Source: Kibdelosporangium persicum (lineage in GTDB: Bacteria; Actinomycetota; Actinomycetes; Mycobacteriales; Pseudonocardiaceae). From it: a DNA stretch of 64,000 nucleotides. Position numbers and translations under genes: made by a program. The stretch covers positions 749,987 through 813,986 of the forward strand of contig NZ_JAAATY010000001.1 in NCBI RefSeq assembly GCF_013280595.1, given 5' to 3'. The notes beneath the pieces were generated by a model, which saw only the letters and a program-made list of their open reading frames with translations, did not search any database and was not told the origin of the DNA. Below are positions 2,195 through 61,737 of the stretch, piece by piece (position 1 is the stretch's first letter; every line of letters begins with the position of its first letter).

Positions 2195-2244
2195 CCCTCG
2201 TGAGTGGTTATCAGGGTTAGAACCCCGATAACCACTCACGAGGG
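2195..2244. repeat. Dispersed 50-bp palindrome, copy 1
   Basis: Arms 2195-2212 and 2227-2244 are perfect 18-bp reverse complements (CCCTCGTGAGTGGTTATC), with GGTT in place of the GTTT found in the other copies. The 14-base centre holds a second small dyad, GGGTT-AG-AACCC. It lies between the converging ends of the SulP gene and gnd. It could act as a two-way terminator, but there is no T-run, and the sequence conservation between copies goes beyond what a terminator needs. Confidence 0.9.
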
Positions 2245-2246
2245 GG

Positions 2247-3680
2247 TCAGGCGTCGATTTCGGTGCGGTCGGCGCCCCAGAGGGTGTGGAAGGCGCCGTC
2301 CTTGTCGACCCGGCGGTAGGTGTGCGCGCCGAAGAAGTCACGCAGGCCCTGGATGAGCGCGGCAGGCAGGCGCTCGGACCGCAGAGCGTCGTAGTACGCC
2401 AGGGCGCTGGAGAATCCAGGCACCGGAACACCAGCGGCCACGGCCGTGGTCACGACGCGACGCCACGCGTCGACGGCGTTCTCCACCGCGGACCGGAAGT
2501 AGTCGTCCGCGAGGAGGGACGGCAGATCCGGCGTCTTCTCGTACGCCTCACGGATGCGGTTGAGGAACACCGCGCGGATGATGCAGCCGCCGCGCCAGAT
2601 GGTCGCCATCGCACCGAGATCGATGTCCCAGTCGTACTGCTCGCTCGCGGCGCGGATCTGGTCGAAGCCCTGCGCGTACGCGACGACCTTCGACGCGTAC
2701 AGAGCCGCGCGCACGTCATCGACCAACGTGTCCGGCACCTGCACGGGAGCGTCCGAAGTGGACGTCAACGCGGAGCGCTGGTCGACACGGGCCGACAGCG
2801 ACCGCGCGAACACGGCCTCGGCGATGCCGGTGACAGGGATGCCGAGTTCGAGGGCCTCCTGCACGGTCCAGCGGCCGGTGCCCTTCTGCTCGGCCTGGTC
2901 GGCGATGACGTCCACGAACGGCTTGCCGGTCGCCGCGTCCACGTGCCCGAGCACCTCGGCGGTGATCTCGACCAGGTAGGACTCCAGGTCGCCGGAGTTC
3001 CACGTGCGGAACACGTCGGCGATCCGCGCGGGCTCCATGCCGCCCGCACGGCGCAGCAGGTCGTACGACTCCGCGATCAGCTGCATGTCGGCGTACTCGA
3101 TGCCGTTGTGCACCATCTTCACGAAGTGCCCGGCGCCGTCCGGTCCGACGTGCACGCAGCACGGCTCGCCGTCCACCTTCGCCGAGATCGCCTCGAGCAC
3201 CGGGCCGAGGTGCTTGTAGGACTCCGCGGACCCGCCCGGCATGATGCTCGGGCCGTTCAGCGCGCCTTCCTCACCGCCGGAGATACCGGTGCCGACGAAG
3301 TGCAGGCCACGCTCCTTCAGCGCCGCCTCCCGGCGGCGGGTGTCGGCGAAGTGCGCGTTGCCGCCGTCGATGATCATGTCGCCCGGTTCCATCAGGTCGG
3401 CGAGCTCGTCGATCACCGCGTCGGCCGGGCCGCCCGCCTTGACCATGATGATCACCTGACGGGGCCGCTGCAGGGACGCGACCAACTCGGCCGCGGTCTC
3501 GGCCGGGACGAACTCGCCCTCGTGGCCGTGCTGCTCGACGAGCGCCTTGGTGCGGGCATACGAGCGGTTGTGCACCGCCACCTTGAAGCCGTGCCTGGCG
3601 AGGTTCCGCGCCAGGTTGCTGCCCATCGTCGCGAGGCCGGTCACCGCGATGCGGGCCTTGCCTTCCGTGCTGTTCACCAT
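2247..3680 (-). CDS. gnd: 6-phosphogluconate dehydrogenase, decarboxylating (NADP)
   Basis: A 477-residue protein of full family length. It oxidises and decarboxylates 6-phosphogluconate to ribulose 5-phosphate and makes NADPH in the cytoplasmic pentose phosphate pathway. The N-terminal Rossmann motif is GLATMGSNLARNLARHG. The substrate region KMVHNGIEYADMQ and the C-terminal helical domain are intact. The ATG at 3680 is used. It is the last gene of a minus-strand run pyk-tesB-gnd, 60 bases after tesB, and stops 2 bases from palindrome copy 1. Confidence 0.97.
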   Translation of the reverse strand: MVNSTEGKARIAVTGLATMGSNLARNLARHGFKVAVHNRSYARTKALVEQHGHEGEFVPAETAAELVASLQRPRQVIIMVKAGGPADAVIDELADLMEPGDMIIDGGNAHFADTRRREAALKERGLHFVGTGISGGEEGALNGPSIMPGGSAESYKHLGPVLEAISAKVDGEPCCVHVGPDGAGHFVKMVHNGIEYADMQLIAESYDLLRRAGGMEPARIADVFRTWNSGDLESYLVEITAEVLGHVDAATGKPFVDVIADQAEQKGTGRWTVQEALELGIPVTGIAEAVFARSLSARVDQRSALTSTSDAPVQVPDTLVDDVRAALYASKVVAYAQGFDQIRAASEQYDWDIDLGAMATIWRGGCIIRAVFLNRIREAYEKTPDLPSLLADDYFRSAVENAVDAWRRVVTTAVAAGVPVPGFSSALAYYDALRSERLPAALIQGLRDFFGAHTYRRVDKDGAFHTLWGADRTEIDA

Positions 3681-3740
3681 GTCTACCAGCCTGCCGTATC
3701 AGCCCGTCCAGGGCTCGCGGGATATGTACTCTGCAAAAAA

Positions 3741-4649
3741 TCAGTCCCGGACGCGCAGCAGACCCTCCTGCACGACCGTCGCGATCAGCGTGCCGTCCTG
3801 GGCGAAGAACCGGCCGGTGGCCAGGCCGCGTCCGCCTGAGGCGCTCGGCGACTCGCAGTCGTAGAGGAACCACTCGTCCGCCCTGAATGGACGGTGGAAC
3901 CACATCGCGTGGTCGAGGCTCGCGCCGATCACGTTGTCCAGCCACCAGTACTTGCCGTGCCGCGCGAGCGGGGCGTCCAGCAACGTCATGTCCGACGCGT
4001 ACGCCAGCACGCAGACGTGCAGCAGCGGATCGTCGGCGAGTTTGCCGTCCGCCCGCATCCACACCTGGTTACGACCGATACGCGGACCCTTGTCGCGCGA
4101 CAGCCATGGAGGCTCGGTGACGTAACGGATGTCGATCGGCCGCGGGATCGACTTCATCGGGTCGAGCCTGCCCTTGGCCGCCTCGACCTGGTCGAAGTAC
4201 GTCGGCAGCTCGTCCGGTCCCGGCACCTCGGGCATCACGTCGGCGTGCTCGAGCCCTTTCTCGATCAGCTGGAACGAGGCGGACAGCGAGAAGATCGCCT
4301 TGCCACGCTGGACCGCGACCACCCGCCGGGTGGTGAACGACCGGCCGTCGCGGATCCTGTCCACTTCGTACACGATCGGAATGCTCGGGTCGCCGGGCCT
4401 GATGAAGTACGCGTGCAACGAATGCACGTGCCGCTCCGCCGGGACCGTACGGCCCGCGGCGATCAGCGCCTGCGCGGCGACCTGCCCGCCGAACACCCGG
4501 ATCGGGCGGTCGGCGGGACTGACGCCGCGAAAGATGTTCTCCTCGATGACTTCGAGGTCCAGCAGGGCGACCAGCCTGTTCAGGACAGGCTGACCCGCCG
4601 CGCCGGCCTGGCCTGGATCCGCCGCCGCGGCCCGCGCGACCTCTGTCAT
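3741..4649 (-). CDS. tesB: Acyl-CoA thioesterase II (TesB family)
   Basis: A 302-residue double hot-dog thioesterase that hydrolyses acyl-CoA to free acid and CoA. The first hot-dog domain shows FGGQVAAQALIAA and HSLHAYFIRPGD. The second, C-terminal one has LDHAMWFHRPFRADEW followed by ATGRFFAQDG, typical of TesB. The ATG at 4649 is 9 bases after the pyk stop, so the two genes are probably cotranscribed. The physiological chain-length preference is not visible. Confidence 0.95.
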   Translation of the reverse strand: MTEVARAAAADPGQAGAAGQPVLNRLVALLDLEVIEENIFRGVSPADRPIRVFGGQVAAQALIAAGRTVPAERHVHSLHAYFIRPGDPSIPIVYEVDRIRDGRSFTTRRVVAVQRGKAIFSLSASFQLIEKGLEHADVMPEVPGPDELPTYFDQVEAAKGRLDPMKSIPRPIDIRYVTEPPWLSRDKGPRIGRNQVWMRADGKLADDPLLHVCVLAYASDMTLLDAPLARHGKYWWLDNVIGASLDHAMWFHRPFRADEWFLYDCESPSASGGRGLATGRFFAQDGTLIATVVQEGLLRVRD

Positions 4650-4658
4650 CAGGACTCC

Positions 4659-6083
4659 CTACGCGTGGTCTTCTTCCCCCAACCGGTGTACCCGGATGAG
4701 GTTAGTGGACCCCACGGTCCCCGGCGGGGAACCTGCGACGATCACCACGAGATCGCCCGGCTGGTAGCGGCCGATCGACAGCATCGAGATGTCCACCTGG
4801 CGCACCATCTGGTCGGTCGAGTCCACCCGCGGCACCAGGAAGGTCTCGGTGCCCCACGTCAGCGCCAGCTGGCTACGCACTTCCTGCTCCGGCGTGAACG
4901 CCAGCAACGGCAGGTGCGTGTGCAGCCGGGCCAGGCGGCGCACGGTGTCGCCGGACTGCGTGAACGCGACCAGCGCCTTGGCGTTGAGGCGCTCACCGAT
5001 GTCGCGGGCCGCGTAGGACAGGACACCACGCTTGGTGCGCGGCACGTGCGTCAACGGCGGCACGGCCGTCGACTCGCTCTCCACGGCCTCGACGATGCGA
5101 CCCATCGTCTTGACGGACTCGATCGGGTAGCGGCCCACGCTCGTCTCACCGGACAGCATCACCGCGTCGGCGCCGTCCAGCACGGCGTTGGCGACGTCGG
5201 ACGCCTCCGCCCGGGTCGGCCGGGAGTTGCTGATCATCGAGTCGAGCATCTGGGTGGCGACGATGACCGGCTTGGCGTTCTCACGGGCGATCTGGATGGC
5301 ACGCTTCTGCACCAGCGGCACCTGCTCGAGCGGCAGCTCCACGCCCAGGTCACCGCGGGCGACCATGATCCCGTCGAAGGCGAGCACGATCGCCTCGAGG
5401 TTGTCGACCGCCTCCGGCTTCTCCAGCTTGGCGATCACCGGCAGCCTGCCCCGGCCGACCCGGTCCATCACCTGGTGCACCAGGTCGATGTCGGCGGGCG
5501 ACCGGACGAACGAGAGCGCCACGAAGTCCACGCCGAGCGACAGCGCGAACTCCAGGTCCTCGATGTCCTTCTGCGACATGGCCGGCACGGACACGTCCAT
5601 GCCCGGCAGGGAGATGCCCTTGTTGTTGCTGACCGGGCCGCCCTCGGTGACCTCGCAGACGACGTCCTGGTTCTCCACTTCCCTGACCACCAGTCCGACC
5701 TTGCCGTCGTCGACGAGCAGCCGGTCGCCGGCCTTGGCGTCCCGCGCCAGGCCGTCGTACGTGGTGGAGACGCGGTCATGGGTTCCGACGATGTCCTCAA
5801 CGGTGATCCGGACGATGTCCCCGGTCCGCCACTCGACCGGTCCGCTGGCGAACGTGCCCAGCCGGATCTTCGGTCCCTGCAGGTCAGCCATGATTCCGAC
5901 GGCGTGTCCCGTCTCGTCGGATGCGGCCCGGACCACGTCGTACACCTGCTTGTGGTCACTGTGGCTGCCGTGGCTGAAATTCATTCTCGCCACGTCCATA
6001 CCCGCCTCGACCAGTTCGAGGACTTTTTCCGGGGTCGAGGTGGCTGGCCCCAGGGTACAGACGATCTTCGCGCGTCGGCTCAC
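4659..6083 (-). CDS. pyk: Pyruvate kinase
   Basis: About 474 residues. It converts phosphoenolpyruvate and ADP to pyruvate and ATP, the last step of glycolysis. Visible motifs are RRAKIVCTLGPAT at the N-terminus, MDVARMNFSHGSH, the catalytic-lysine region IAKLEKPEAVDN and MVARGDLGVELP, followed by the C-terminal allosteric domain. The GTG at 6083 gives the start usual for actinomycete enzymes. An in-frame ATG at 6107 (MKGLGCTN...) would add 8 residues and cannot be excluded, because neither start has a strong ribosome site. It is first in the run pyk-tesB-gnd. Confidence 0.95.
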   Translation of the reverse strand: MSRRAKIVCTLGPATSTPEKVLELVEAGMDVARMNFSHGSHSDHKQVYDVVRAASDETGHAVGIMADLQGPKIRLGTFASGPVEWRTGDIVRITVEDIVGTHDRVSTTYDGLARDAKAGDRLLVDDGKVGLVVREVENQDVVCEVTEGGPVSNNKGISLPGMDVSVPAMSQKDIEDLEFALSLGVDFVALSFVRSPADIDLVHQVMDRVGRGRLPVIAKLEKPEAVDNLEAIVLAFDGIMVARGDLGVELPLEQVPLVQKRAIQIARENAKPVIVATQMLDSMISNSRPTRAEASDVANAVLDGADAVMLSGETSVGRYPIESVKTMGRIVEAVESESTAVPPLTHVPRTKRGVLSYAARDIGERLNAKALVAFTQSGDTVRRLARLHTHLPLLAFTPEQEVRSQLALTWGTETFLVPRVDSTDQMVRQVDISMLSIGRYQPGDLVVIVAGSPPGTVGSTNLIRVHRLGEEDHA

Positions 6084-6198
6084 GTTCGTGCAGCCTAGCC
6101 CCTTCATCTGAACCGATGCGGAACTACCACCGGGTAATTTGTGAACGCCCCGGCCAGAGCCGGTTTTTCCACGCACGGCCACGGGGATTTTCCGCATC

Positions 6199-6216
6199 GT
6201 GGCAGGATCGTGCCAC
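6199..6216 (-). terminator. Hairpin after the pentapeptide-repeat gene
   Basis: A perfect 6-bp inverted repeat (GTGGCA, 6 bases, TGCCAC) starts right after the stop codon of the minus-strand gene at 6218. No T-run follows, so it is only a possible terminator. It lies in the 134-base gap before pyk. Confidence 0.4.
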
Positions 6217-6217
6217 C

Positions 6218-7579
6218 TCAGGGCGCGTTCGGCGGGGCCCCGCGCTCGGCCGGGACCGGTGGCTTCTCCGGCGAGGTGACCCGGACGAGGTAGCCCCACG
6301 CGCCGTCGCGGTCGGCGAGGCGGGCCTCGGCGTCGTCCCGTGGTTCGCGGATCGCCCACCCGCGCGGCCAGATCGACAGGCTGCGGTCGACGTCCACCCG
6401 GACCCGGCCGCCGTCGAGCATCGCGGTGGTGGCGAACCAGGACTCGGTGAAGTCGACGTTCCCGCCGAACCGGGCGGCCCGCAGGTCGGCGTTGCGGGTG
6501 AAGTAGGCGCCCCGGAAGCTGCAGTGCGCCGCGAAGTACGCGCCGAGCGCCTCGACGTGCGCGCTGAAGCGGACGCCGTTGAAGGTCGCGTCCTTGGAGA
6601 AGGTCGACCCGCTGAAGTCCGCCTCGGCGGCGAACCAAGCACCGGCGAACTCGCAGCGCCCGACGAACATGACGGTGCGGAAACCGGCAGGCGCGCTGAA
6701 CGCGGCCTGCGAGAAGTCGGCCATGCCCGCGAAGACGGCCTTGGCGAACAGCGCCTCGCCGTTGACCTTCATGCCGCCGAAGTCGGTGTCACCGGCGAAC
6801 CCGGCGCCGCTGAAGTCGGCCCGGCCTGCGAACCAGGCGTTGCGGAACTCGGCGCGGCGGCTGACGAACCGGGCGTTGCCGAACCGGGCGTCCCCGGCGA
6901 CCTGGGTGCCGGCGAACGAGATCTCGCCGGCGAAGTGCGCGCGGTCGAACGTGGCCAGCCGCAGCCGGCAGTTCGCCAGCACGAAGTCGATCAGGGTCGC
7001 GCCGGACAGGTCGATGTCGACGTCCGGCCAGAACAGGTTCGGCTCGGACGGCCGCAGATGGGCGGCCAGGATTCGCTGCGCGGCCACACGGACGCCACGT
7101 TCGGCCACGTCACCGATGGTGTCCCCGGCCTGTTCAGGCGGCGCGTACGGCATCCGTAGGTACGAACAGATCACGTTCACGACGGTCTGGCGGTAGGCGG
7201 GATCGACCTGCGCGAGCCGTTCCAGCGCGTACAGGCCGGCCAGGCGGACCGGTGCCTTGTCAGAACCGAGCTGGTCGGCCGCACGGGCGTACGCGTCGGA
7301 GCCACGACGTTCGGTGACGTCGGATTCGTGAGCGGCCGCGGACCGCGCCAGCCGCCAGACGTGCCAGGCGGCGATCATGAGCGCGACCGCGAGCCCGGCC
7401 AACAGACCCAGGTACACCGCTGTGCGCACCGAATCCAATGACGGGCTGCCGGTCAGCAGGAAGATCACGACGGCTGTCGCGGTAACGCCGAACACCGGCG
7501 CAACGACGACCGCCGCCACACGCCACCAGGACCACGGGGTGCGTTCCATGCACGTGATGGTGTCGTAACTGGCCGTCAT
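6218..7579 (-). CDS. Membrane-anchored pentapeptide-repeat protein
   Basis: A 453-residue protein. Two hydrophobic segments at about residues 20-40 and 52-72 anchor it, with a short linker. A helical stretch follows (GSDKAPVRLAGLYALERLAQ). From about residue 190 to 400 there are A(D/N)LXX-type pentapeptides, mostly with F or A at the key positions (FAGEISFAG, FGNARFVS, FSGSTFSKDATF), predicted to form a right-handed beta-helix on the cytoplasmic side. The LaGLYALErLA stretch is common in bacterial pentapeptide proteins with this layout. An ATG at 7549 is an alternative start. Function unknown; gyrase protection is known only for different pentapeptide proteins and is not implied. Confidence 0.85.
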   Translation of the reverse strand: MTASYDTITCMERTPWSWWRVAAVVVAPVFGVTATAVVIFLLTGSPSLDSVRTAVYLGLLAGLAVALMIAAWHVWRLARSAAAHESDVTERRGSDAYARAADQLGSDKAPVRLAGLYALERLAQVDPAYRQTVVNVICSYLRMPYAPPEQAGDTIGDVAERGVRVAAQRILAAHLRPSEPNLFWPDVDIDLSGATLIDFVLANCRLRLATFDRAHFAGEISFAGTQVAGDARFGNARFVSRRAEFRNAWFAGRADFSGAGFAGDTDFGGMKVNGEALFAKAVFAGMADFSQAAFSAPAGFRTVMFVGRCEFAGAWFAAEADFSGSTFSKDATFNGVRFSAHVEALGAYFAAHCSFRGAYFTRNADLRAARFGGNVDFTESWFATTAMLDGGRVRVDVDRSLSIWPRGWAIREPRDDAEARLADRDGAWGYLVRVTSPEKPPVPAERGAPPNAP

Positions 7580-19593: not shown

Positions 19594-20565
19594 GTGGCGC
19601 TGATCCTGTTGGTGCTCGCCGCTTTCTCGTCGCTGCTGCTCGGCGTGTCCGACCTGGGGTATGCACGGGTGCTGCAAGAGATCTGGGCGCAGCTGACCGG
19701 TGGCGTGTCGCCGTTGTCGTCCCGGGAAGCCGCGATCCTGTGGTATCTCAGGGCTCCCCGGGTCGTGCTGGCGGCGTTGGTCGGTGGCGCGCTGGCCATC
19801 TCGGGTGCCGCGTTCCAGGGTGTGTTCCGCAATCCCTTGGCGGACCCGTACTTGCTGGGCGCGGCGGCCGGGGCCGGGCTGGGCGCGACCATCATCGTGG
19901 TGACCGCTCCGACGTGGAGCATCGCGTTGCCACTGGCGGCCTTCGCCGGCGCGCTCGGCGGTGTCGGGCTTTCGTGGGCGTTGAGCCAGTCGGCGGGGCG
20001 CAGCACGGCGACGCTGCTGCTCGCCGGGGTGGCGGTGGCGTCGTTCCTGACGGCCGTGCAGACCTTCGTGCAGCAGGCGAACATCGACACGATCCAGCGG
20101 GTGTACTCGTGGATGCTCGGCGGGCTCAACACCACCGGGTGGCGTGAGGTTCTGCTGACATTGCCGTACATCACCGTGACGAGTGTCGTGTTGTGGTTGT
20201 GCGCAAGGCTTCTGGACGTGTTGGCCGTCGGTGACGAGGAGGCGGCTTCGTTGGGCATCCGGCCCGCGCGGGTCCGGTTCCTCGTGCTGGGCGCTGCTTC
20301 GCTGGCGACCGCCGCGGCCGTGTCCGTCGGTGGCCTCATCGGGTTCGTCGGAATCGTGGTGCCGCACATCGTCCGGCTGCTCGCGGGGGCGAGTTACCGG
20401 GTCGTGCTGCCGTTGTCCCTGCTGGGCGGTGCGACGTTCCTGATCGTCGCGGACGAGATCGCGCGGACCGTGCTGGCACCGGCGGAACTGCCGATCGGCG
20501 TGATCACGGCGTTCACCGGGGCGCCGTTCTTCCTGTTGGTGCTGCGGATGAACAGGACCCGATGA
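19594..20565 (+). CDS. FecCD-family ABC transporter permease
   Basis: About 323 residues with roughly ten hydrophobic segments. Family landmarks are LWYLRAPRVVLAALVGGALAISG, FQGVFRNPLADPYLLG and the C-terminal GGLIGFVGIVVPHIVRLL. It forms the channel for the metal chelate delivered by the lipoprotein. The start is uncertain: GTG 19594 is the first ordinary codon, while a CTG at 19558 overlapping the previous stop would add 12 residues. It overlaps the ATPase gene by 4 bases (ATGA). Confidence 0.92.
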   Translation: MALILLVLAAFSSLLLGVSDLGYARVLQEIWAQLTGGVSPLSSREAAILWYLRAPRVVLAALVGGALAISGAAFQGVFRNPLADPYLLGAAAGAGLGATIIVVTAPTWSIALPLAAFAGALGGVGLSWALSQSAGRSTATLLLAGVAVASFLTAVQTFVQQANIDTIQRVYSWMLGGLNTTGWREVLLTLPYITVTSVVLWLCARLLDVLAVGDEEAASLGIRPARVRFLVLGAASLATAAAVSVGGLIGFVGIVVPHIVRLLAGASYRVVLPLSLLGGATFLIVADEIARTVLAPAELPIGVITAFTGAPFFLLVLRMNRTR

Positions 20566-21341
20566 TGCTGGAACTGGTCGGCGTGACGGCCGGATACCGT
20601 GGCAGACCCGTGGTGTCCGAGGTGTCGGTGGCGGTCCCGCGCGGCAGCTGGCTGGCGATCATCGGCCCGAACGGCGCGGGCAAGTCGACCCTGTTGAAGT
20701 CCATCGCCGGGCTGGTCCCGCACTCGGGTTCCGTCCTGCTGGACGGACGGCCCGTCCAGCAGCTGAGCGCCCGGGAACGTGCCCAGGTGATGGGGTATTC
20801 ACCGCAGACGCCATTGTTGCCTGAAGGATTGTCGGTCACCGCTTACGCTTTGCTCGGGCGTACGCCGCATTTGGGGACCCTGGCTCGGGAAGGCCCGCGG
20901 GATCTCGCCGTGGTCGAGCAGGTTCTGGCCAGGCTGGACCTTTCCTCGATGGCCCGGCGGTTGCTGCGGACCCTGTCGGGCGGTGAGCGGCAACGGGCCG
21001 TGCTCGCCCGGGTTCTGGCGCAGCAGACCGGAATCCTCCTGCTGGACGAGCCGACCACGGGCTTGGACATCGGGCACGCGCAGGCCTTGCTGGAGTTGGT
21101 GGACCGGTTGCGGACCGAGGATGGGACGACCGTGGTCACCACCTTGCACGACTTGACCCTGGCGGGCCAGTACGCCGACCGGCTGCTGTTGCTGGATCGC
21201 GGAAGCGTTGTGGCTTCAGGAGATTCAGCCTCCGTGCTGAACGCTTCCGTCCTGGCGCAGCACTACGACGCCCGGCTGAGTGTCATCGAAGGACCCGACG
21301 GAAGCCCGGTCGTAGTCCCCCAACGCCACCCGCCCAAGTAA
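20562..21341 (+). CDS. ABC transporter ATP-binding protein, FepC/BtuD type
   Basis: A 259-residue ATPase with Walker A GPNGAGKST, signature LSGGERQRAVLARVL, Walker B GILLLDEPTTGLD and the switch His in TTLHDLTLA. It energises the neighbouring permease. The start overlaps the permease stop, so the three genes form one operon, closed by palindrome copy 2. Confidence 0.95.
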   Translation: MMLELVGVTAGYRGRPVVSEVSVAVPRGSWLAIIGPNGAGKSTLLKSIAGLVPHSGSVLLDGRPVQQLSARERAQVMGYSPQTPLLPEGLSVTAYALLGRTPHLGTLAREGPRDLAVVEQVLARLDLSSMARRLLRTLSGGERQRAVLARVLAQQTGILLLDEPTTGLDIGHAQALLELVDRLRTEDGTTVVTTLHDLTLAGQYADRLLLLDRGSVVASGDSASVLNASVLAQHYDARLSVIEGPDGSPVVVPQRHPPK

Positions 21342-21353: not shown

Positions 21354-21405
21354 CCCCTCGTGAGTGTTTATCCGTGTTCTAACCCGGATAAACACTCACG
21401 AGGGG
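21354..21405. repeat. Dispersed palindrome, copy 2
   Basis: Arms 21354-21373 and 21386-21405 are perfect 20-bp reverse complements built on CCTCGTGAGTGTTTATCC. The 12-base centre is GTGTTCTAACCC. It lies 12 bases after the ABC ATPase stop and 12 bases before a KstR-like operator, between two genes on the same strand. Its core is the same as copy 5. Confidence 0.92.
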
Positions 21406-37820: not shown

Positions 37821-38903
37821 ATGCGTGCGCATTCCGTCGTCATGGCCGTCACCGAGGACATGCCGGTCTTCGAAGCGGCCGTCCCGTGCCAGGTCTTCGG
37901 TGTCGACCGGCCGCACCTGGCCGATCCCTGGTACTCGTTCACCGTGGTCCCGGTCGGGAACAGGCCGGTCCGGCTGAGCCCTGGCTTCACCGTCGCGCCG
38001 GTCAGCGGCGGGTGGGATCTCGGCACGACGGACACCTTGGTGGTCCCGGCGTGCACGAACGTCCACGACGCCCCGCCCGCCGAGCTGGTCGCCGTGGTCC
38101 GGGAGGCGTACGAGCGCGGAATCCGAATCCTGTCCATCTGCTCGGGCGCTTTCATCCTGGCCGCCGCGGGCGTGCTCGACGGGCGCCGCGCGACCACCCA
38201 CTGGCTGCACGCGGACGAGCTGAGCCGCCGCTATCCCGCCGTCCGCGTCGATCCGTCCGTTCTGTACGTGGAGGACGCCAACGTGATCACGTCCGCGGGG
38301 ACCGTGGCGGGGATCGACGCGTGCTTGCACGTGGTGCGTATCGACCACGGCGCCGCCGTGGCCGCCGAGCTGGCCCGGCGGCTCGTCACCCCGCCGCATC
38401 GGGACGGCGGACAGGCCCAGTACCGCCCGGCCGCGCCCGTGGTCCGCGACGACTGGCTGGCCCCGCTGCTGGACTGGGCCGACGAACACCTGCATCTGCC
38501 GCTGACCACCGCCGACCTGGCCGCGCGGGCGAACGTCAGCGTGCGCACGGTGGAGCGCCGGTTCGCCGAGGCGCTCGGGATGTCGCCGCTGCGCTGGCTG
38601 CTTCAGCAGCGGGTGCGCCGGGCTCAGCAGCTGCTGGAGACCAGCGACCGGCCGGTCAGCTGGATCGCCGACACGTGCGGGTTCGGGGGCGCGGCCGGTC
38701 TGCGGGCGCATTTCGCGCGGATCGTCGGGATGTCGCCGACGACGTACCGGCGCACGTTTGTCCTAGATCGTCAACCCGAGGTTGACGCTACGCGGGTCGT
38801 CAACCTACAGTTGACGGATGACGGACGCACCCCGCCTCGGCGAACTCATCGACGCAGTGGAGAAGCTGCACCCGGCCGGCGACCCGTTGAAGCGGCTCAC
38901 TGA
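37821..38903 (+). CDS. GlxA-type (DJ-1/PfpI domain plus AraC HTH) transcriptional regulator
   Basis: A 360-residue protein. Residues 1-185 are a DJ-1/PfpI-like domain with the nucleophile region LSICSGAFILAAAGVLDGRRATTHW. Residues about 215-318 are an AraC double helix-turn-helix (TTADLAARANVSVRTVERRF, WIADTCGFGGAAGLRAHFARIVGMSP). The AraC part ends at YRRTF; about 45 further basic residues have no family match and run 86 bases into the next gene, so that gene's promoter lies inside this coding region. TAGGTT is 6 bases before the ATG, suggesting a leaderless start. Confidence 0.88.
   Translation: MRAHSVVMAVTEDMPVFEAAVPCQVFGVDRPHLADPWYSFTVVPVGNRPVRLSPGFTVAPVSGGWDLGTTDTLVVPACTNVHDAPPAELVAVVREAYERGIRILSICSGAFILAAAGVLDGRRATTHWLHADELSRRYPAVRVDPSVLYVEDANVITSAGTVAGIDACLHVVRIDHGAAVAAELARRLVTPPHRDGGQAQYRPAAPVVRDDWLAPLLDWADEHLHLPLTTADLAARANVSVRTVERRFAEALGMSPLRWLLQQRVRRAQQLLETSDRPVSWIADTCGFGGAAGLRAHFARIVGMSPTTYRRTFVLDRQPEVDATRVVNLQLTDDGRTPPRRTHRRSGEAAPGRRPVEAAH
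38769..38816 (+). promoter_or_regulatory. Twin palindromic operators fused to a leaderless promoter
   Basis: Two palindromes with the same arms, CGTCAACC-CGA-GGTTGACG (38769-38787) and CGTCAAC-CTACA-GTTGACG (38798-38816), have centres 29 bases apart. The right arm of the first contains TTGACG (38782-38787) and the second contains TACAGT (38806-38811), an 18-base-spaced -35/-10 pair. The ATG follows the -10 box by 6 bases and there is no ribosome site. Confidence 0.8.
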
Positions 38904-39531
38904 CGCCATGCTGATCGCCCAGCACCTCGGCGAGCTGGCCGACCACCTGATCGGTCACTTCGTGGACCGCGCAAGGCATTCCGGCGCGTCGTGGACCGAG
39001 ATCGGGCAGAGCATGGGCGTGACCAAGCAGGCCGCGCAGAAGCGGTTCACGTCCAACGCGCCCGAACAGCTGGACGTCTCGCAGTTCGCCCGCTTCACCG
39101 ACATGGCCCGGGTGGCCACGGTGGCGGCGCAGAAGGAAGCCGAGCGGCTCAAGCACGCCGAGATCGCCCCGGGCCACATCTTGCTCGGCCTGCTGACAGT
39201 GCCGGACGGCTTGGCCGCCAAGGCGATCAAGACACTCGGCGGCGAGGTCGAGACCGTCCGTGCCGCGGTGATGGCCAAGCTGGGCCCGGCCGTGGACGCT
39301 CCGCCGAGCGTGCACATCCCGTTCTCCGGTCAGTCCAAAAAGGTCCTGGAGCTGACGGTGCGGGAAGCGTTGCGGCTGGGGCACAACTACATCGGCACCG
39401 AGCACATCCTGCTGGGACTGCTCGCCCTCGGCGACAGCACGGTCAACGACACCCTGACCGAATCACGTGTCCCCGCCGACCGGATCGAGACCACCATCCT
39501 CAACGCACTCCCCCAAGATCCCCCCTCGTGA
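38818..39531 (+). CDS. HTH plus Clp N-terminal-repeat protein
   Basis: A 237-residue protein with two parts. Residues about 1-80 are helical and contain a helix-turn-helix (SWTEIGQSMGVTKQAAQKRF). Residues about 85-235 are two Clp-N repeats (AEIAPGHILLGLLTVPDGLAAKAI and NYIGTEHILLGLLALGD). It has no ATPase domain, so it is not a chaperone. It may link recognition of Clp substrates or signals to transcription, and it probably controls itself through the palindromes that touch its start codon. The stop TGA lies inside palindrome copy 3. Confidence 0.85.
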   Translation: MTDAPRLGELIDAVEKLHPAGDPLKRLTDAMLIAQHLGELADHLIGHFVDRARHSGASWTEIGQSMGVTKQAAQKRFTSNAPEQLDVSQFARFTDMARVATVAAQKEAERLKHAEIAPGHILLGLLTVPDGLAAKAIKTLGGEVETVRAAVMAKLGPAVDAPPSVHIPFSGQSKKVLELTVREALRLGHNYIGTEHILLGLLALGDSTVNDTLTESRVPADRIETTILNALPQDPPS

Positions 39532-39570
39532 GTGTTTATCAGGGTTAGAACACGCATAAACACTCACGAG
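39525..39570. repeat. Dispersed palindrome, copy 3
   Basis: Arms CTCGTGAGTGTTTAT (39525-39539) and its complement (39556-39570), 15 bp each, with a centre containing GGGTTAGAACACG. The last two codons of the ClpN-like gene and its stop are formed by the left arm. Its centre is in the opposite orientation to copy 4, and the two flank hisA and the Uma2 gene. Confidence 0.92.
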
Positions 39571-41001: not shown

Positions 41002-41049
41002 CCTCGTGAGTGTTTATCCGTGTTCTAACCCCGATAAACACTCACGAGG
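41002..41049. repeat. Dispersed palindrome, copy 4
   Basis: Arms CCTCGTGAGTGTTTATC (41002-41018) and its complement (41033-41049), with centre CGTGTTCTAACCCC. It lies 11 bases after the hisH stop. The centre is the reverse complement of that in copy 3, so copies 3 and 4 are inverted repeats. Confidence 0.92.
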
Positions 41050-41060: not shown

Positions 41061-41687
41061 CTAGAGGGATTTGAGCCAGTTTTTCAGCAGGTGTGCGCCG
41101 GCGTCGCCGGACTTCTCGGGGTGGAACTGCGTCGCGGACAGGGCGCCGTTCTCCACCGCGGCGACGAAGTCACAGCCGTGGTTGGCCCACGTGACCAGCG
41201 GCGCCGCGATCGTGCCGCCCGACTCGAGCTCCCACTTGCGCACGCCGTACGAGTGTACGAAGTAGAACCGCGTGTCCTCGTCCATGCCGTCGAACAGCGT
41301 GGTGCCCTCCGGGGCACGGACGGTGTTCCAGCCCATGTGCGGGACGACATCGGCCTCAAGGCGTTCGACCGTGCCAGGCCACTCGTTGCAGCCCTCGGTC
41401 TCCTCGCCGTGTTCGATGCCACGCTCGAACAGGATCTGCATGCCGACGCAGATGCCGAGCACCGGACGCCCGCCGGCGAGCCGCGTGCCGACCGTACGGT
41501 GGCCGTGCACGGACTTCAGGCCCTTCATGCACGCCGCGAACGCCCCCACGCCGGGGACGACCAGCCCGTCCGCGTTGAGCGCCGCATGGCGGTCGGCGGT
41601 CACCTCGACGTCGGCGCCGACGCGCTGAAGAGCACGTTCGACGGAACGAAGGTTCCCCGACCCGTAGTCCAAGACGACAACTCGCAC
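41061..41687 (-). CDS. hisH: Imidazole glycerol phosphate synthase glutaminase subunit
   Basis: A 208-residue class I amidotransferase that supplies ammonia to HisF. It starts [20 protein letters not shown], with the nucleophile in [13 protein letters not shown] and the His-Glu pair in [11 protein letters not shown]. The GTG at 41687 starts it; the frame stays open far upstream but overlaps the divergent Roco gene. It is isolated from both hisB and hisF by accessory genes. Confidence 0.96.
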
Positions 41688-41771
41688 GGCTCCCAGAGTA
41701 CCCGCTGCTCCGAACCGGTCATCGCGCCCGATTCGGCCACCGGCCGGTCGAGCGCATGGAACCCTGGTGAC

Positions 41772-44700
41772 ATGGTTCACGAGGCACTCCGCCGGATCGA
41801 CGAAGCACGCCAGACCCACGCCAGGACCCTCGACCTGAGCCATCTGCGGCTGCGCGAACTGCCGCCCGAACTGGCCAAGCTGACCCATCTGACCGAGTTG
41901 CGGCTGAACGACAACCGGCTCACCGAGCTGCCGGACTGGTTCGCCGACCTGGGCGGGCTCGAGGCCCTGGACCTCGGCGTGAACCACTTCGCCACGGTGC
42001 CCGAGCCGATCGCCGCGTTGACCGGCCTGACGGCGCTGGACATCGGCTACAACACCTACTCGGCGATCCCCGCCTGGCTCGGTGACCTGAAGAACCTGGA
42101 GAAGCTGTACCTGGGCAACGCCAACGCGACGGAAGTCCCGGCATGGCTGGCCGAGATGCCGCATCTGTCCAGGCTGTCCCTCGGCGGCGGCAGGGTGGCC
42201 ACGTTGCCGACGTGGATGAAGGACATGCCCGAGCTGCGCATGCTCAACGTCAGCAACAACCCCCTCGGCCAGTTGCCCGACTGGCTCGGCGAGCTCACCG
42301 GGCTGGACGGGCTGTACGCGGAGAACGTGCAGCTCACCAGTGTGCCGGAAGCGCTGGCCGGGCTTCGAGGCCTGACCCGGCTGATGCTCGGTTACAACAA
42401 CCTGACCCGGCTGCCGGACTGGCTGCCGGGGCTCCCGCTGCGCAAGCTCGGTGTCCACGCCAACCGGCTGACCGACCTGCCCGCCTTCCCGCGGCTCACC
42501 AAACTCCTTGTCGACGGGAACAAGCTGACCCGCGTTCCCGAGTGGCTCTCCGGGCTGACGGAGATGACCAACCTCTGGCTCGGCCGCAACGAGATCACCG
42601 AACTGCCCGGCTGGCTCGCCGGGCTCAGCGCGCTGGAACTGCTTGACATCGGCGACTTCCGGCTGATCGCACTGCCGGACTGGTTACGCACTCTGACCAG
42701 GCTGACCTACCTGAACGTCAGCGGCAACGGCCTGGTCGAGATCCCGGACTGGATCGGTGAGCTGCGGGCGCTGGGGAACCTGACGCTGAGCGAGAACCGG
42801 TTGCAGACCCTGCCGGACAGCTTCAGCCAGCTGACCAACCTGACCCGGTTGAACATCCGCACCAACCGGTTCGCCACCCTGCCGGACTGCCTGGCTTCGC
42901 TGCGCAACCTTGAGGCCCTGTACGCCTCGGACAACTACCTGACCTCACTTCCGCCCTGGCTCACCGAACTGCCCGCACTGAAGCACCTCCGGCTGTCGGA
43001 GAACCAGCTGACCGATCTGCCGGCGGGCATCGGCCGGCTGACTGAGCTGGAATACCTGGCGCTCAACCGGAACACCCTGCGCACGCTGCCCAGCACCATC
43101 GGCGAGCTGTCCAATCTCGACGAACTGCACCTGGCAGGCAACGAACTGCGTGGCCTGCCCGAGAGCATCGTCGGGTTGTCCGGGCTGCGCCTGCTCGACG
43201 TCTCCGGCAACCGGCTCGCCGCCGTGCCCGACGCCCTGACCCGGCTCTCCCAGCTGCAGACGTTGGACCTGCACAACAACCGGCTCACCACACTGCCCGC
43301 CGGTCTGACGAACCTGAAGCGCCTGACCGGTCTGACCCTCAGCGGCAACCGGTTCATCAGCCCGCCGCCGGAGATCGTCGCGGGCGGCACGGCTTCGGTG
43401 ATGGCCTTCCTGCGCGCCCGCCGCCAGGGCGTGCTGGCGCAGTGGGTGTCCAAACTGCTCGTCGTGGGCGAAGGCGGCGTCGGCAAGACCTCGTTGGTCA
43501 AGGCCCTGACTGGCCATGAGTACGACATAGACGAACCGTCCACCCACGGCATCCGCATCGAGCACCTCGACCTGCCGCATCCCGACCAGCACGACGTCCG
43601 GATGCGGCTCAAGACATGGGACTTCGGCGGGCAGGAGATCTACCACGCCACGCACCAGTTCTTCCTGACCAACCGGTCGTTGTTCCTGCTGGTCTGGAAC
43701 GCCCGGCACGGCTGGGAACAGGGCAGGCTGCGGTACTGGCTCGACATCATCTCCGCACGGGCGCCGGAATCCCCGATCGTCCTGGTGGTCACCCATGTCG
43801 CGGACCGGCCGGTGGACTTCCCGCTCGACGAACTGAGGCACGAGTACCCGCGGATCGTGGCGAGCAAGGCCGTGGACAACCGGACCAGGCAAGGGATCGA
43901 CGAACTGCACGACCTCATCGCGGCCGAGTCGGCGAAGCTGCCGTTGATGGGCTCGGAGTGGCCACGCAAGTGGGTCAGTGCGGCACAGGCACTGTGGGAT
44001 TCGTCGGCGAACCGGGTCACGCCCGAAGAGATGTGGCAGATGATGGCCGCGGCGGGCGTCGAGGACGCCACGCAGCAGCGCTACCTCGCGGTCGCCCTGC
44101 ACGAGCTCGGCGACATCCTCTACTACAGCGATGATCCCGAGCTGTGCGACACCGTTGTGCTGCAACCGGAATGGGTGAACGAGTACATCAGCAAAGTGCT
44201 CGACAGCCGCGAGGTCGAAGCGGCACACGGCCTGTTGACCCGTCAGCACCTGCGGGAGCTGTGGCGTGGGCTTGATCGCGGCACCAGCGATCACTTCCTT
44301 GGCATGATGGACAAGTACGACCTGTCCTACCGGGTCGACGGCCGGCCGGACGACGTCAGCCTGGTCGTCGAGCGCCTGTCCTGGAACCCGCCGCCGTACC
44401 AGGACCGCTGGGACGGCATGGCGGGCGCACAGGAGATCAAGGTCCTGTACCGGCTCAACACCATGCCGCCCGGGATTCCGACGTGGTTCATCGCCCGCTC
44501 CCATCGCTTCAGCACGAACACCCATTGGCGGACAGGCGCTGTGCTCAAGCACGGTGAGCAGTTGGCGTTGGTTCGGGCCGACGCGCACCGCAAGACCGTG
44601 GAACTCACCGTGCGGGGACCGTCGCCCGCGGCCTTTTTCTCGATCCTGGACGACGGTCTCAACAGGACACTGGAACGGTTTCCCGGGCTGGAGATCCGCC

Positions 44701-45506
44701 GTGAGGTGCCGTGCCGCTGCCAGGAGGGCTGCACTCAGCTTTTCGACTACGACGATCTCGGCAAACGCCTGACGAAGGTGCCGCCGAAGTACACCATCGA
44801 GTGCCATCGTTCGGGCGAGGACGTCGACATTCGCGGTCTGCTGCTCGGCTTGGCTCCGTCCAACCGGGACGTCACCGCGATGAGCATCGACCAGATCGAC
44901 CAGCGACTCATCCGGATCGAGGACAAGGTCACCGAGAACACCGAGTACAACCAACGGATGTTCATGCGGCTGCAGCACATCGCGCAGACGCAACAGGAGA
45001 CCCGGTGCCCGAGTGTGTTCGCCTTGGTGCCGGTCAAGGGAAAGCGCCGCTACGAACTGAGGCTGTACTGCGAGGAACCCGGCGCGTGGCACCGTCTTCC
45101 CGAGCCGCACGGGTGTTACCCGATCAGCCAGCCGTCGGAGTGGTTCCGCAAACTCGGCCCTTACCTCCAGGGAATGCTGAAAGTGCTCAAGCACGCGGCT
45201 CCGCTCGCGGGTCCGATCCTGGGAATCACAGTGGATCAGCTCAGCCAGCAACTGAAGGCCGACTGCGACCTGATGAAGGAACTACTCAACCAGGCGCCGG
45301 CGAAACTGCGGACCGACGACGAGGTCCGCGGACTGACCGACGTGCCCGCGGTCAGGGCGGAGAACGACGCGGATTTCCGTGTGCTGGAAGCGATGCTGCT
45401 CGAACTCGACCCGGACAGGATCTGGGGCGGCCTGTCCCGCACCACCACACCTGAAGGCCTGACCCTGTATCTCTGCGGGGAGCACCGGAAGGCGTATCTA
45501 CCGTAG
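41772..45506 (+). CDS. LRR-Roc-COR (Roco-family) GTPase
   Basis: A 1244-residue protein. About residues 14-540 are 23 leucine-rich repeats of 23 residues each, except one shorter repeat near the middle. The Roc GTPase has P-loop GEGGVGKTS at 566-574, switch II DFGGQE at 617-622 and THVAD (G4 position) at 674-678. A COR domain follows at about 690-950 ([27 protein letters not shown]). The C-terminal 290 residues hold a CRCQEGC cluster near 979, a predicted coiled coil at about 1037-1075 and a hydrophobic helical end. Bacterial Roco proteins are dimer-dependent GTPases of mostly unknown role. It is transcribed away from hisH, in the middle of the split his locus, with no partner on its strand. 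Confidence 0.93.
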
Positions 45507-56724: not shown

Positions 56725-56733
56725 ATCCGCACC

Positions 56734-57612: not shown

Positions 57613-59227
57613 GCAGCACTCCTCACCAACGTGTTGGCCGCCAGCACCGGTTGGCCGGACGGGTTGAGCCGGACCGCGAGGCTGTGCCGCCACGCGGGGC
57701 TGGTGTCGGGGAAATCAGTCCGCACGTGGCAGCCACGGCTTTCCGTACGGGCCGCGGCGGCCGCGATGAGGGCTCGCGCGGCCAGCGTCAGCGCCGCGTC
57801 CTCGACGCGTTGCCTGGTCTTCAGCACAGTGTCCACAGCGGACACATCGAGCACCGAGCCGACCACCGCCAGCCCCTCGGCGTCCCGGCCGATCCCGGCG
57901 TAACGGCTCATCACACGCTGCAGCACGTCCCGGTCGGCGACCGGAGCCGCCGGAAGGGGAGCCTTCACCGCGGCCTTGGGGTCGGCGAGCACACCCGCGG
58001 CCAGGTCCGCCGCGATCGCCTTCGCCGCACGGGCACCGACCACGAGTCCTTCGAGCAAGCTGTTGGACGCCAGCCGGTTGGCGCCGTGCAACCCGGTTCG
58101 CGCGACCTCGCCGACGGCGTAGAGCCCGGTCACGCCGGTCCGGCCGTCCACTGTGGACGTCACACCGCCGCACGCGAAGTGCGCCGCCGGGGACACCGGG
58201 ATCGGGTCGGTGGACGGATCCACCCCGACCGACCGGCAGGCCGCGAGCACGGTCGGGAACCGCCGCCGGAACAGCTTCGCGTCCAGATGGGTCGCGTCCA
58301 GGTACACGTGGTCGCCGACACCACCCGGTTCCAGCGCCATCCTGCGCGTGATCGCGGCGGACACCACGTCCCGTGGCGCCAGATCCTCAAGCGGGTGCAC
58401 GCCTTTCATCACCCGCTCGCCCAGCGCGTCGACGAGTACCGCGCCTTCACCCCGGACCGCCTCGGTCACCAGCGGGCAGCGTCCACGCGCGCCCGGGCCG
58501 GTGTACAGGACGGTCGGGTGGAACTGCACGAACTCGACGTCCGCCACGGGCGCACCGGCTCGCAGGGCCAGCGCCAGCCCGTCCGCGGTCGCCACCTCGG
58601 GATTCGAGGTCGCCTGGAACAACTGGCCCAGTCCGCCGGTCGCCAGCAACACGGCCGGCGCGCTCACCACACCAGGCACACCGTTCGGGTCCAGCACGAG
58701 CAACCCGACAACCGAGCCGGTGGGGGTACGAACCGTGTCGACCGCGATGTGGTTCTCCAGCAACGGAACCCGCCCGTCCTGAGTCGCCGACAGCAACGCC
58801 CGCTCGATCTCGGCGCCGGTCGCGTCACCGCCCGCGTGCACGACACGGAACGCGCTGTGGCCGCCTTCCCGCGTCCTGGCCAGCTGTCCGTTCGAACCGG
58901 GGTCGAAGACCGCGCCGAGCTTGCGCAGCCGCGTCACCGCTGTCGCGCCGTCCGCCAGGATCGCCGCGACCGCGTCGTCGTCACCGAGGCCAACGCCCGC
59001 CACCAGCGTGTCCTCCACGTGCGCCGCGACCGAATCGCCTTCGTCGTGCTCGTCGGGCAGGACGACCGCGACACCGCCCTGCGCCCAGCGCGTGTTCCCG
59101 GCACCCGCCGACGCCTTGGTGATGACCAGGACCCGCAGGCCCCGTTCACGGGCCTCCAGCGCCGCGGTCAGCCCGGCCACGCCGGTACCGACCACGATCA
59201 CGTCCGCGCGAGCCTCCCAGCGCGGGC

Positions 59228-59231
<4 letters not shown>
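57609..59231 (-). CDS. nadB: L-aspartate oxidase
   Basis: A 540-residue FAD enzyme that oxidises aspartate to iminoaspartate for NadA. The FAD motif [17 protein letters not shown] is at the start. The covalent-fumarate-reductase-like region [11 protein letters not shown] and [26 protein letters not shown] follow. The GTG at 59231 overlaps the nadA stop. Confidence 0.97.
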
Positions 59232-60226
<995 letters not shown>

Positions 60227-60260
60227 CTGGTCCTCCTAGCTCCGGGTTTCCGCTCCCGAG

Positions 60261-60283
60261 GTTTTCGACTAAGGATCGAAAAC
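60261..60283. promoter_or_regulatory. NrtR operator
   Basis: GTTTTCGA, 7 bases, TCGAAAAC is a perfect 23-base palindrome. It ends at the base just before the ATG of the NrtR gene and is 34 bases before nadA, as expected for control of both. Its spacer carries AAGGA, which may be the ribosome site of the regulator. Confidence 0.85.
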
Positions 60284-60988
60284 ATGGCTGATGCTACCAC
60301 CGAGCCCCCCTTGCTCGGCCATGAGGTTTTGGCCGCGGTGCTGCAAGTGAGAGAGGGATCACTCCAGGTCCTGCTCTGGCAGAGGGCCAGGGAACCCCAT
60401 GTGCACCGCTGGTCACTGCCCGGCGGCAGGCTCCGGCTGGACGAGGACGTCGAGCACTCGATCCGCCGTCAGCTCAAGGAGAAGGTCGACGTCCGGCAGC
60501 TCGCGCACGTCGAGCAGCTGGCCGTGTTCAGCGCCCCCGGCCGCGTCCCCGGGCCACGGCTGGTCGCGTCGGCGTTCGTCGGGCTGGTGCCGTCCGACAA
60601 CGATCCCGAGGTCCCGCCGGACACCCGGTGGCACCCGGTGGACGCGCTGCCCACCACCGCCTTCGACCACGAGTCGATCGTGCTGCGGGCCCGGCACCGG
60701 CTGCGGTCGAAGCTGTCGTACACCAACATCGGCTTCGCACTGGCGCCGCCGACGTTCACGATGTCCGAACTGCGGGAGATCTATTCGGCGGCACTCGGTT
60801 ACAGCGTGTCGTCCACCAACCTGCAACGAGTGCTGTCCAGGCGCGGGCTTCTCGAACCGACCGGCGAAACCACCAAGCCGGGACGGTCCGGCGGCCGCCC
60901 GGCCGCGCTGTTCCGGTTCACCGTGCGGGGCATGCAGGTCACCGACGAGTTCGCGGTGTTGCGCCCGCCCGCTGCGAAAACCCGGTGA
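60284..60988 (+). CDS. nrtR: NrtR-type Nudix-domain transcriptional regulator of NAD synthesis
   Basis: A 234-residue protein. Residues about 10-145 are a Nudix-like domain, in which the Nudix box is eroded (GGRLRLDEDVEHSIRRQLKEKV lacks the full GX5EX7REUXEEXGU), as expected for a sensor instead of a hydrolase. Residues about 150-230 are a winged helix (FTMSELREIYSAALGYSVSSTNLQRVLSRRGLL). It probably senses an ADP-ribose-like or NAD-related signal and represses nadABC. Confidence 0.9.
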   Translation: MADATTEPPLLGHEVLAAVLQVREGSLQVLLWQRAREPHVHRWSLPGGRLRLDEDVEHSIRRQLKEKVDVRQLAHVEQLAVFSAPGRVPGPRLVASAFVGLVPSDNDPEVPPDTRWHPVDALPTTAFDHESIVLRARHRLRSKLSYTNIGFALAPPTFTMSELREIYSAALGYSVSSTNLQRVLSRRGLLEPTGETTKPGRSGGRPAALFRFTVRGMQVTDEFAVLRPPAAKTR

Positions 60989-61007
60989 TGCACGTACTTT
61001 GAGTGGT

Positions 61008-61688
61008 GTGCCCGAGACACTTCCGCTGTTTCCCCTGCAGACAGTGCTGCTGCCGGGCGCGAACCTGCCGCTGCACATCTTCGAGCCGCGCTACCGGCAG
61101 CTGACCGTCGACCTGGTCACCGGGACCGTGCCGGAGAAGCGCTTCGGCGTGGTCGGGATCAAGGCCCCGGTCACCGAGGAGGTCGACAAGGTCGACCAAC
61201 TGCTGGCCGTCGGCTGCTCGGCCGTGCTGCGTCAGGCGACGCGGCTGCCGGACGGCCGTTACGACATCATCACCACCGGTGAGCGCAGGTTCCGCCTGCT
61301 CGACCTCGACGCGACCAGCGCGCCGTACCTGATGGGCACGGTCGACTGGATCCGGGACGCCGAGATCCCGCCCGGCGGGGCCGAACGCATCGGATCGCTG
61401 GCCCAGTCGGCACGGGCGGCGTACCGCCGTTACTGCGAAACCGCCTGGGAACGCGAGGACTGGGACGAGCCGGCGGCGGAGACCGACCCGGCCGACCTCG
61501 CGCACCTGCTGGCGGCCGACGCCCTGCTGCCGATGGAGGACCGGCAGGCCGTGCTGGAGGAGATCCGTCCGATGCACCGGTTGCGAATGGTCTACTCGCT
61601 GCTCACGCGAGAAGCAGGGATCATCGCGGCCCTGCACGCGGTCCCCGCTCCCGCCTCGGCCTTCGCAGCCCCCATAACCCTCAACTAA
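61008..61688 (+). CDS. Lon-substrate-binding-domain (LON/PUA-like) protein
   Basis: A 226-residue stand-alone N-terminal Lon domain: LPLFPLQTVLLPGANLPLHIFEPRYRQL, RFGVVGIK, GCSAVLRQATRLPDGRYDIITTGERRFRLL. It lacks the ATPase and protease parts. Function unknown, perhaps an adaptor. The GTG at 61008 is 7 bases after TACTTT, so it may be leaderless. It ends one base before palindrome copy 5. Confidence 0.92.
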   Translation: MPETLPLFPLQTVLLPGANLPLHIFEPRYRQLTVDLVTGTVPEKRFGVVGIKAPVTEEVDKVDQLLAVGCSAVLRQATRLPDGRYDIITTGERRFRLLDLDATSAPYLMGTVDWIRDAEIPPGGAERIGSLAQSARAAYRRYCETAWEREDWDEPAAETDPADLAHLLAADALLPMEDRQAVLEEIRPMHRLRMVYSLLTREAGIIAALHAVPAPASAFAAPITLN

Positions 61689-61689
61689 C

Positions 61690-61737
61690 CCTCGTGAGTG
61701 TTTATCCGTGTTCTAACCCGGATAAACACTCACGAGG
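61690..61737. repeat. Dispersed palindrome, copy 5
   Basis: Arms CCTCGTGAGTGTTTATCC (61690-61707) and its complement (61720-61737), with centre GTGTTCTAACCC as in copy 2. It lies between converging genes. Confidence 0.92.

Follow-up and report, generated by a model that had tools for sequence, protein, structure and literature searches.

Gene-end palindromes of Kibdelosporangium and an AbiEi-type protein as their candidate partner

The window analysed here, 64,000 nucleotides of Kibdelosporangium persicum, carries five copies of a near-perfect palindrome at the ends of genes. It corresponds to G000:C1:749987-813986, where G000 is its own Kibdelosporangium-type genome (10.35 Mb), C1 is a 978-kb contig of that genome, and G000 to G007 are eight genomes of the window's genus. 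The palindromes are rather probably bidirectional terminators that form a REPIN-like population, which is kept uniform, and probably spread, through one dedicated partner protein of AbiEi type. The copies make up one family of fixed geometry with covarying hairpin arms, they are placed at gene 3′ ends, and their inner arms of nine nucleotides (N9) evolve in concert. At one orthologous site an unrelated hairpin has taken the place of the palindrome, palindromes stand beside the partner gene across genera, and within the genus this gene and a high copy number occur together. For the partner protein we infer an enzymatic action.

Architecture and placement of the palindromes

All five palindromes described in a sequence-only reading of the window were found. 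A scan of the window for the stem CTCGTGAGTGTTTATC with up to three mismatches gave 10 occurrences (5 pairs) against 0.20 expected, and none of 100 shuffles reached 10. As that reading had also claimed, the copies are close to stop codons, and each of the five sits just 3′ of a gene or covers its stop. Their positions in the window are the following:

Copy 1, 2195..2244: 3 bp past the stop at 2191 and 2 bp ahead of the convergent stop at 2247, between the SulP/carbonic anhydrase and 6-phosphogluconate dehydrogenase genes.
Copy 2, 21354..21405: 12 bp past the stop of an ABC-transporter gene (21341), ahead of a codirectional SDR gene.
Copy 3, 39525..39570: includes the stop of the Clp_N-domain gene 38818-39531, ahead of a His_biosynth gene.
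Copy 4, 41002..41049: beside a GATase open reading frame (ORF) on the minus strand, 11 bp from its stop (41061).
Copy 5, 61690..61737: 1 bp past the stop at 61688 and 21 bp ahead of the convergent stop at 61759, between a LON substrate-binding domain gene and the gene 61759-62367.

The element is a single palindrome of about 46 bp with the architecture TCGTGAGTG-N9-GTTAGAAC-N9'-CACTCACGA, of fixed length and with a conserved, asymmetric centre. In the G000 genome, 326 exact copies of TCGTGAGTG-N9-GTTNNAAC-N9-CACTCACGA were counted, with 0 control matches; the general pattern GAGTG-N9-GTTNNAAC-N9-CACTC likewise gave 326 copies and the strict motif with both arms 213. On contig C1, 63 copies were recognized over 24 fixed positions, 50 of them without mismatch, 11 with one and two with two. 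None had three to six mismatches, and the counts at seven to eight are at chance level, like those in shuffled or reversed sequence. The family coincides with 54 of the 74 strong hairpins of the contig (score of at least 14). The outer blocks were 26 bp apart in 202 of 209 pairs within 120 bp, and 201 of these 202 were centred on GTTAGAAC or GTTCTAAC, in a set partly selected by its centre. In stretches not selected by centre, all 79 outer pairs with the 26-bp spacing hold GTTAGAAC or GTTCTAAC mid-way.

The pairing analysis started from 131 elements of 112 named loci and used 128, three with more than two mismatches being left out. The N9 positions pair in 73–95% of copies, against 32–61% expected from column composition, and the outer TCGT..ACGA, which lies outside the search pattern, is nearly invariant. 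The outer arms and the centre are therefore fixed in sequence, and the nine intervening pairs need only pair. All 63 C1 copies show GTTAGAAC in one orientation, so the element has polarity. Arm positions 15 and 17 vary strongly and do not pair in the C1 copies of G000; elsewhere they pair in 88% and 84% of copies. The idea that the two arms shuffle freely, suggested by the independence of these two positions in G000, was rejected, as left and right types proved to be associated once the centre was oriented.

The 63 C1 copies were called as 27 convergent, 22 codirectional, 13 divergent and one inside a gene; the contig has 154 convergent, 520 codirectional and 154 divergent junctions in total. 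On inspection, the copy called divergent at 790989 (copy 4 of the window) and the copy called inside both turned out to be at gene ends, leaving 51 copies 3′ of a gene and 12 divergent. The palindrome is thus neither equally frequent inside genes on these 978 kb nor, with its 326 exact copies, absent elsewhere in the genome. The claim of placement only at gene ends held for the five copies of the window but not genome-wide. Similarly, a density of one copy per 13 kb had been noted for the window, but it falls to one per 15.5 kb on C1 (63 per 978 kb, up to two mismatches) and to one per 32 kb for the genome (326 exact copies per 10.35 Mb). The distance to the stop was at most 20 bp in 42 of the 49 convergent or codirectional C1 copies and exceeded 60 bp in three. 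Mismatches are commoner in the divergent C1 copies, where 6 of 12 have them, than in the other C1 copies with 7 of 51 (Fisher p=0.012, shared ancestry ignored). The 131 elements of the 112 named loci comprise 62 convergent, 45 codirectional, six divergent, three inside and 15 at the edge of a locus, and the median distance to the stop was 9 bp for the 107 gene-end copies.

In G000, 13 of 76 gene-side tails have three or more consecutive T after the hairpin, compared with 11 of 294 control sites; in G003 such runs were seen in 11 of 37 tails. The predicted RNA hairpin energies of the window copies range from -22.9 to -51.8 kcal/mol (8-nt flanks included, both strands). The centre has no clear bias relative to the gene, 14 codirectional copies having it in the same orientation and nine in the opposite one. 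At the copy 1 site in seven relatives, the palindrome family is present in G001 (with altered centre), G003, G004 and G005; G006 has an unrelated palindrome there, G002 an unrelated GC-rich hairpin, and G007 is rearranged. This swap looks like the pattern expected of interchangeable terminators, and the hairpins look like bidirectional intrinsic terminators. Termination alone does not explain the invariant sequence, the uniformity and the patchy fate of the copies, and the partner gene explains them better.

Unrelated palindromes with CCAATGTGGC or GCCACATTGG were observed at gene ends in the G006 and G002 regions near the copy 1 and copy 5 sites (L133-L136, L149-L152), and one palindrome of this type in G006 sits exactly at the site of copy 1.

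The genes of the window that adjoin the palindromes are:

62..2191, plus strand: Sulfate_transp and Pro_CA gene, ends at copy 1.
2247..3680, minus strand: 6PGD gene, convergent, ends at copy 1.
20562..21341, plus strand: ABC_tran gene, ends at copy 2.
38818..39531, plus strand: Clp_N gene, stop inside copy 3.
41061..42458, minus strand: GATase-domain ORF, adjoins copy 4; the domain is in the 3′ part and the true start is probably shorter.
61008..61688, plus strand: LON_substr_bdg gene, ends at copy 5.

The GATase ORF overlaps, in antisense, the 5′ part of a 1417-amino-acid LRR-Roc-COR (ROCO-type) ORF at 41253-45506, and Pfam matches were obtained for both. No Rfam match was found within the window.

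The partner gene and its association with the palindromes

The gene of the AbiEi-type partner protein is located on the same contig:

C1:623881-624861, outside the window: partner gene, enclosed by two palindrome copies at 623799 and 624859, 1.06 kb apart.

It lies likewise between two copies in G003 and G004. Five places of the gene were found by tblastn in the retrieved sequence, in G000, G003, G004, G005 and at locus L026 of Haloechinothrix halophila, and each adjoins an element; the Haloechinothrix locus had been retrieved through the DNA motif alone. The neighbours in G000 are genes for a P450, a thiolase and two short-chain dehydrogenases, and no AbiEii toxin is among these four.

Homologues were searched by scoring eight first-look candidates per genome, and those with E of 1e-70 or below, a line of our own choosing, are called strong. 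Within the genus the gene occurs once each in G000, G003, G004 and G005 and was not found in G001, G002, G006 and G007 among the eight candidates scored in each (8 of 35 in G006). Exact copies of the palindrome number 374, 326, 105 and 104 in the genomes that have the gene, and 26, 2, 1 and 0 in the other four. Among 259 genomes of the family, 70 have a homologue at 1e-10 and 35 a strong one; some genomes beyond the genus gave two or three matches, several of them strong. A strong homologue and the motif occur together in 21 genomes, the gene only in 14, the motif only in 15 and neither in 209 (Fisher 1.3e-12, ancestry uncorrected). Fifteen of the 20 genomes with at least 20 exact copies have a strong homologue.

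The surroundings of the gene were compared in 30 loci, each the best match of its genome. They represent 30 of the 35 genomes with a strong homologue, and some of the loci are near-duplicates (such as L291/L292 and L300/L301). By a fixed rule, hairpins of the family type flank the gene on both sides in 22 loci, on one side in six and on none in two, with 50 hairpins in 20.4 kb around gene ends against two in 59.3 kb of the outer parts. Reading of the hairpin list gave both sides in 24 loci and one side in six, as the two loci missed by the rule (L290 and L298) have a palindrome too, that of L298 with other outer arms. A narrower regular expression found the palindrome on at least one side in 28 loci and on both in 11. 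In most loci one palindrome lies about 35–160 bp upstream of the start, and its counterpart is found close to the stop or at it. Genomes without the exact motif contribute ten of these loci, and their palindromes have the centres GTTATAAC, GCTATAGC, GCTATGAC, GCCAGGGC, GCTAGGAC and GCTCTGGC, sometimes with other outer arms.

At the orthologous place in G001, only CTCC separates the stop of the thiolase gene (a name taken over from the counterpart in G000) from the downstream flank; the flanks are 92–94% identical, and the entire element-gene-element unit of G005 is lacking. Because the unit occupies the same place in G000, G003, G004 and G005, loss in G001 is favoured over a site that was never occupied. 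Relatives searched by profile in the retrieved sequence gave 35 matches, none outside loci holding the partner gene, and searches of plasmids and viral contigs did not turn up the protein. At G646:C88:99160-100109 the gene was matched as two separate pieces, possibly a broken copy, in a genome with two exact copies of the palindrome.

When 27 homologues of the protein were aligned, the mean column identity was 63%. The AbiEi models of PADLOC matched all 27 (best 1.2e-18) at about residues 20–180, and Pfam AbiEi_4 matched nine (best 3.4e-6). In the C-terminal 100 residues E245, D246, Y249, R259, L260, D261, H266, F273, R274, D275, R278, D279 and N280 are invariant. The commonest C-terminal match is DUF559, in 8 of 27 homologues with a best E of 0.0033, which is under the Pfam cut-off, and the domain appears weakly DUF559/Vsr-like.

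Distribution and evolution of the copies

In a sample of 394 genomes of the class, the motif occurs in one, that of the window itself, and the sample had only two others of its family. In the sample of 259 genomes of the family it was found in 36 genomes and in 9 of 46 genera, with 1 to 403 copies. Hairpins recognized by the outer arms only number 135 in G005, 83 in G006, 19 in G001, five in G007 and four in G002, and the proportion with the whole motif declines from about four fifths in G005 through one third in G006 to one tenth in G001. The canonical GTTAGAAC centre is present in none of the 19 outer-arm hairpins of G001, a near relative of G005 with flanks 90–97% alike. Changed centres were also seen in genomes of low copy number, in all three places of G549 and in three of the eight listed for G562.

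No match to the element was obtained in plasmid records, nor in phage records at the sensitivity used; a match in a viral contig (L016) was due to chance and is not a palindrome. Horizontal spread to Rhodococcus was considered and rejected, as locus L034, labelled 'Rhodococcus rhodnii NRRL B-16535', matches G005 over 8 kb at 100% identity and its label looks wrong. The records under this title (JOAA01) are L034, L042, L055, L058 and L088.

A composite, BIME-like repeat of about 128 bp was seen in G005. It consists of two palindromes with crossed arms (a..b', b..a') and a linker core like CCAGC..GGCTGG, and five copies of it were listed:

L256:8740-8867
L257:3303-3431
L258:3377-3504
L259:2934-3061
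L249:7165-7291

The family occupies the orthologous place in 21 of 45 comparisons in which both flanks were found with a gap of at most 400 bp. Orthologous copies of G000 and G004 (n=4) are alike at 7.5 of 18 N9 positions, against 7.4 for random cross-species pairs and 14.7 for paralogues within G000. The orthologues of G000 and G003 (n=8) share 14.5 N9 positions against 12.5 for random pairs. The centre is reversed in 8 of 20 scorable orthologous pairs, the loci of which are not all independent. Read most simply, these comparisons mean that one copy is overwritten by another from its own genome, in whichever orientation. Among seven aligned sites in G000, G003 and G004, no clear case of a clean empty site was found for ordinary copies.

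Proposed mechanism, rival explanations and known systems

The partner protein may bind the palindrome by the centre and the outer arms, as AbiEi proteins reportedly do with inverted repeats in their own promoters, and its binding, nicking or cutting could cause one element to be copied over a second one or to a new location. Copying provoked in this way would account for the uniformity and for the reversed centres. The hairpins would persist mainly where a terminator is harmless or useful, and the arrangement would work like a REPIN population with its RAYT, an unrelated protein being in the place of RAYT. Put in full, this would be a self-maintaining hairpin population in which an AbiEi-type protein recognizes the palindromes that belong to it and causes them to be copied or converted. 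The host would use the copies as bidirectional terminators, and repeat and protein would drift together into dialects of species (centres GTTAGAAC, GTTCGAAC, GTTATAAC, GCTATAGC, GCCAGGGC and others). On this full version our judgement is evenly balanced.

Several results weigh against a population of terminators maintained by this protein. Twelve of the 63 C1 copies lie between divergent genes, and most copies are without a T-run. The orthologues of G003 and G004 (n=6, one poorly matched) have an N9 identity of 7.7 against 8.7 for random pairs. Five of the 20 genomes with high copy number are without a strong homologue, namely G143 (177 copies), G090 (97), G584 (73), G006 (26) and G613 (23); possibly the homologue was missed there, with eight candidates scored in each, or the repeat is independent of the gene. 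Fourteen genomes have a strong homologue and no exact motif, though 10 of them are among the 30 loci and have variant palindromes beside the gene; in a further 35 the homologues are weaker (E 1e-10 to 1e-66), and most of these genomes do not have the motif. The assignment of the C-terminal domain to nucleases is weak, the DUF559 value of 0.0033 being no better than that of an implausible match to the viral peptidase family Peptidase_C27 (0.0043). A distant relative, in an unannotated record labelled as phage, has an EVDG motif, and its glutamate is replaced by arginine in all 27 homologues, which makes catalysis doubtful. No convincing relative was found in the PDB, one search giving none and the other a single protein at E 0.28.

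If the palindromes were plain host terminators, similar through ordinary gene conversion, the AbiEi-type gene would lie between two copies by chance. Placement at 3′ ends, the T-runs, the replacement of the hairpin at the copy 1 site, the occupied orthologous places in 21 of 45 comparisons and the five high-copy genomes without detected gene all fit such an origin. It seems unlikely all the same, as a terminator would not need its centre and outer arms to stay constant from genus to genus, palindromes stand beside the gene in 28 of the 30 loci by the fixed rule, upstream as well as downstream, the copy number tracks the gene in the genus, and the centre is lost in the gene-less G001. Somewhat less likely still is a role in defence or self-recognition, in which the AbiEi-type protein would take the palindromes as a sign that the chromosome is its own, or be held back by binding them, and attack DNA without them. 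AbiEi is the antitoxin of a toxin-antitoxin kind of phage defence (PADLOC models), the gene is patchy, and its C-terminus is possibly nuclease-like; but the acid of the C-terminal motif is replaced, none of the four neighbours in G000 is an AbiEii toxin, and neither the element in phage records, at the sensitivity used, nor the protein in viral contigs was found. Placement at 3′ ends and the terminator features are also left unexplained by defence.

That the palindromes are operators of a regulon under the AbiEi-type protein is rather improbable, most copies being at gene 3′ ends and not at promoters. One palindrome lies upstream of the partner gene in most loci, at the distance given above, which is where AbiEi operators lie (PMC7319586), and at the partner gene itself there may be autoregulation. 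The sequence-only reading had proposed a REP/BIME-like family or a mobilised terminator, possibly moved by a RAYT-type transposase. This comes near the observed behaviour, the copies being dispersed, homogeneous, hairpin-forming and for the most part placed where genes end, and two of them enclosing a gene, but a RAYT as the mover is not supported. REP elements of the classical kind, with a RAYT (Y1/HUH) transposase as mover, are scarcely credible and already contradicted, although the flanked single gene, the dispersed hairpins and the lower copy number without the gene are alike in both populations (PMC8049555). Pfam Y1_Tnp (PF01797) had no match in the one own genome, with matches in 5 of 14 control genomes, and the gene found is AbiEi-type and not HUH. 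A GTAG or CGTC tag is present in the 8-nt flanks of 5 of the 63 C1 copies; random intergenic pairs have one in 16.6% of cases.

What keeps short palindromic repeats going where no transposase is apparent is a standing question, and the AbiEi-type protein is here a clear candidate partner other than a transposase. The natural presence and absence of its gene in one genus makes cause and effect directly testable. If the proposed partnership is true, the palindromes would offer a set of bidirectional terminators for the engineering of actinomycetes, and the widespread AbiEi fold would have a new role. Among the literature matches listed, none names the palindrome family or ties an AbiEi/DUF559 protein to palindromic or dispersed repeats.

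Inverted DNA uptake sequences that serve as terminators are conserved genome-wide words present as inverted pairs at gene ends, like the palindromes described here, and we know of no link of the Kibdelosporangium palindromes to uptake. The AbiE type IV toxin-antitoxin system is similar in its AbiEi profile match and in the precedent that AbiEi proteins are reported to bind inverted repeats in their own promoters (PMC7319586). It differs from the system found here, which has no AbiEii toxin among the G000 neighbours, an extra C-terminal domain and dispersed palindromes. The CGTC-tagged REPs are dispersed palindromes without a known dedicated transposase (PMC3733652); they have another tag and occur in other taxa, and the Kibdelosporangium palindromes have a candidate dedicated gene. 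In RAYT/REPIN systems a single-copy, vertically inherited gene is tied to dispersed hairpins and often flanked by copies (PMC8049555, PMC3733652), and Escherichia coli genomes without a RAYT gene are reported to hold fewer copies (PMC8049555). The REP/RAYT pairing (REPtron) is alike in its short, dispersed, mostly intergenic palindromes and in its dedicated gene flanked by copies. The difference is that the partner here is AbiEi-type and not Y1/HUH, that there is no GTAG tag, and that the element is a palindrome of a fixed length of 46 bp with the asymmetric centre GTTAGAAC.

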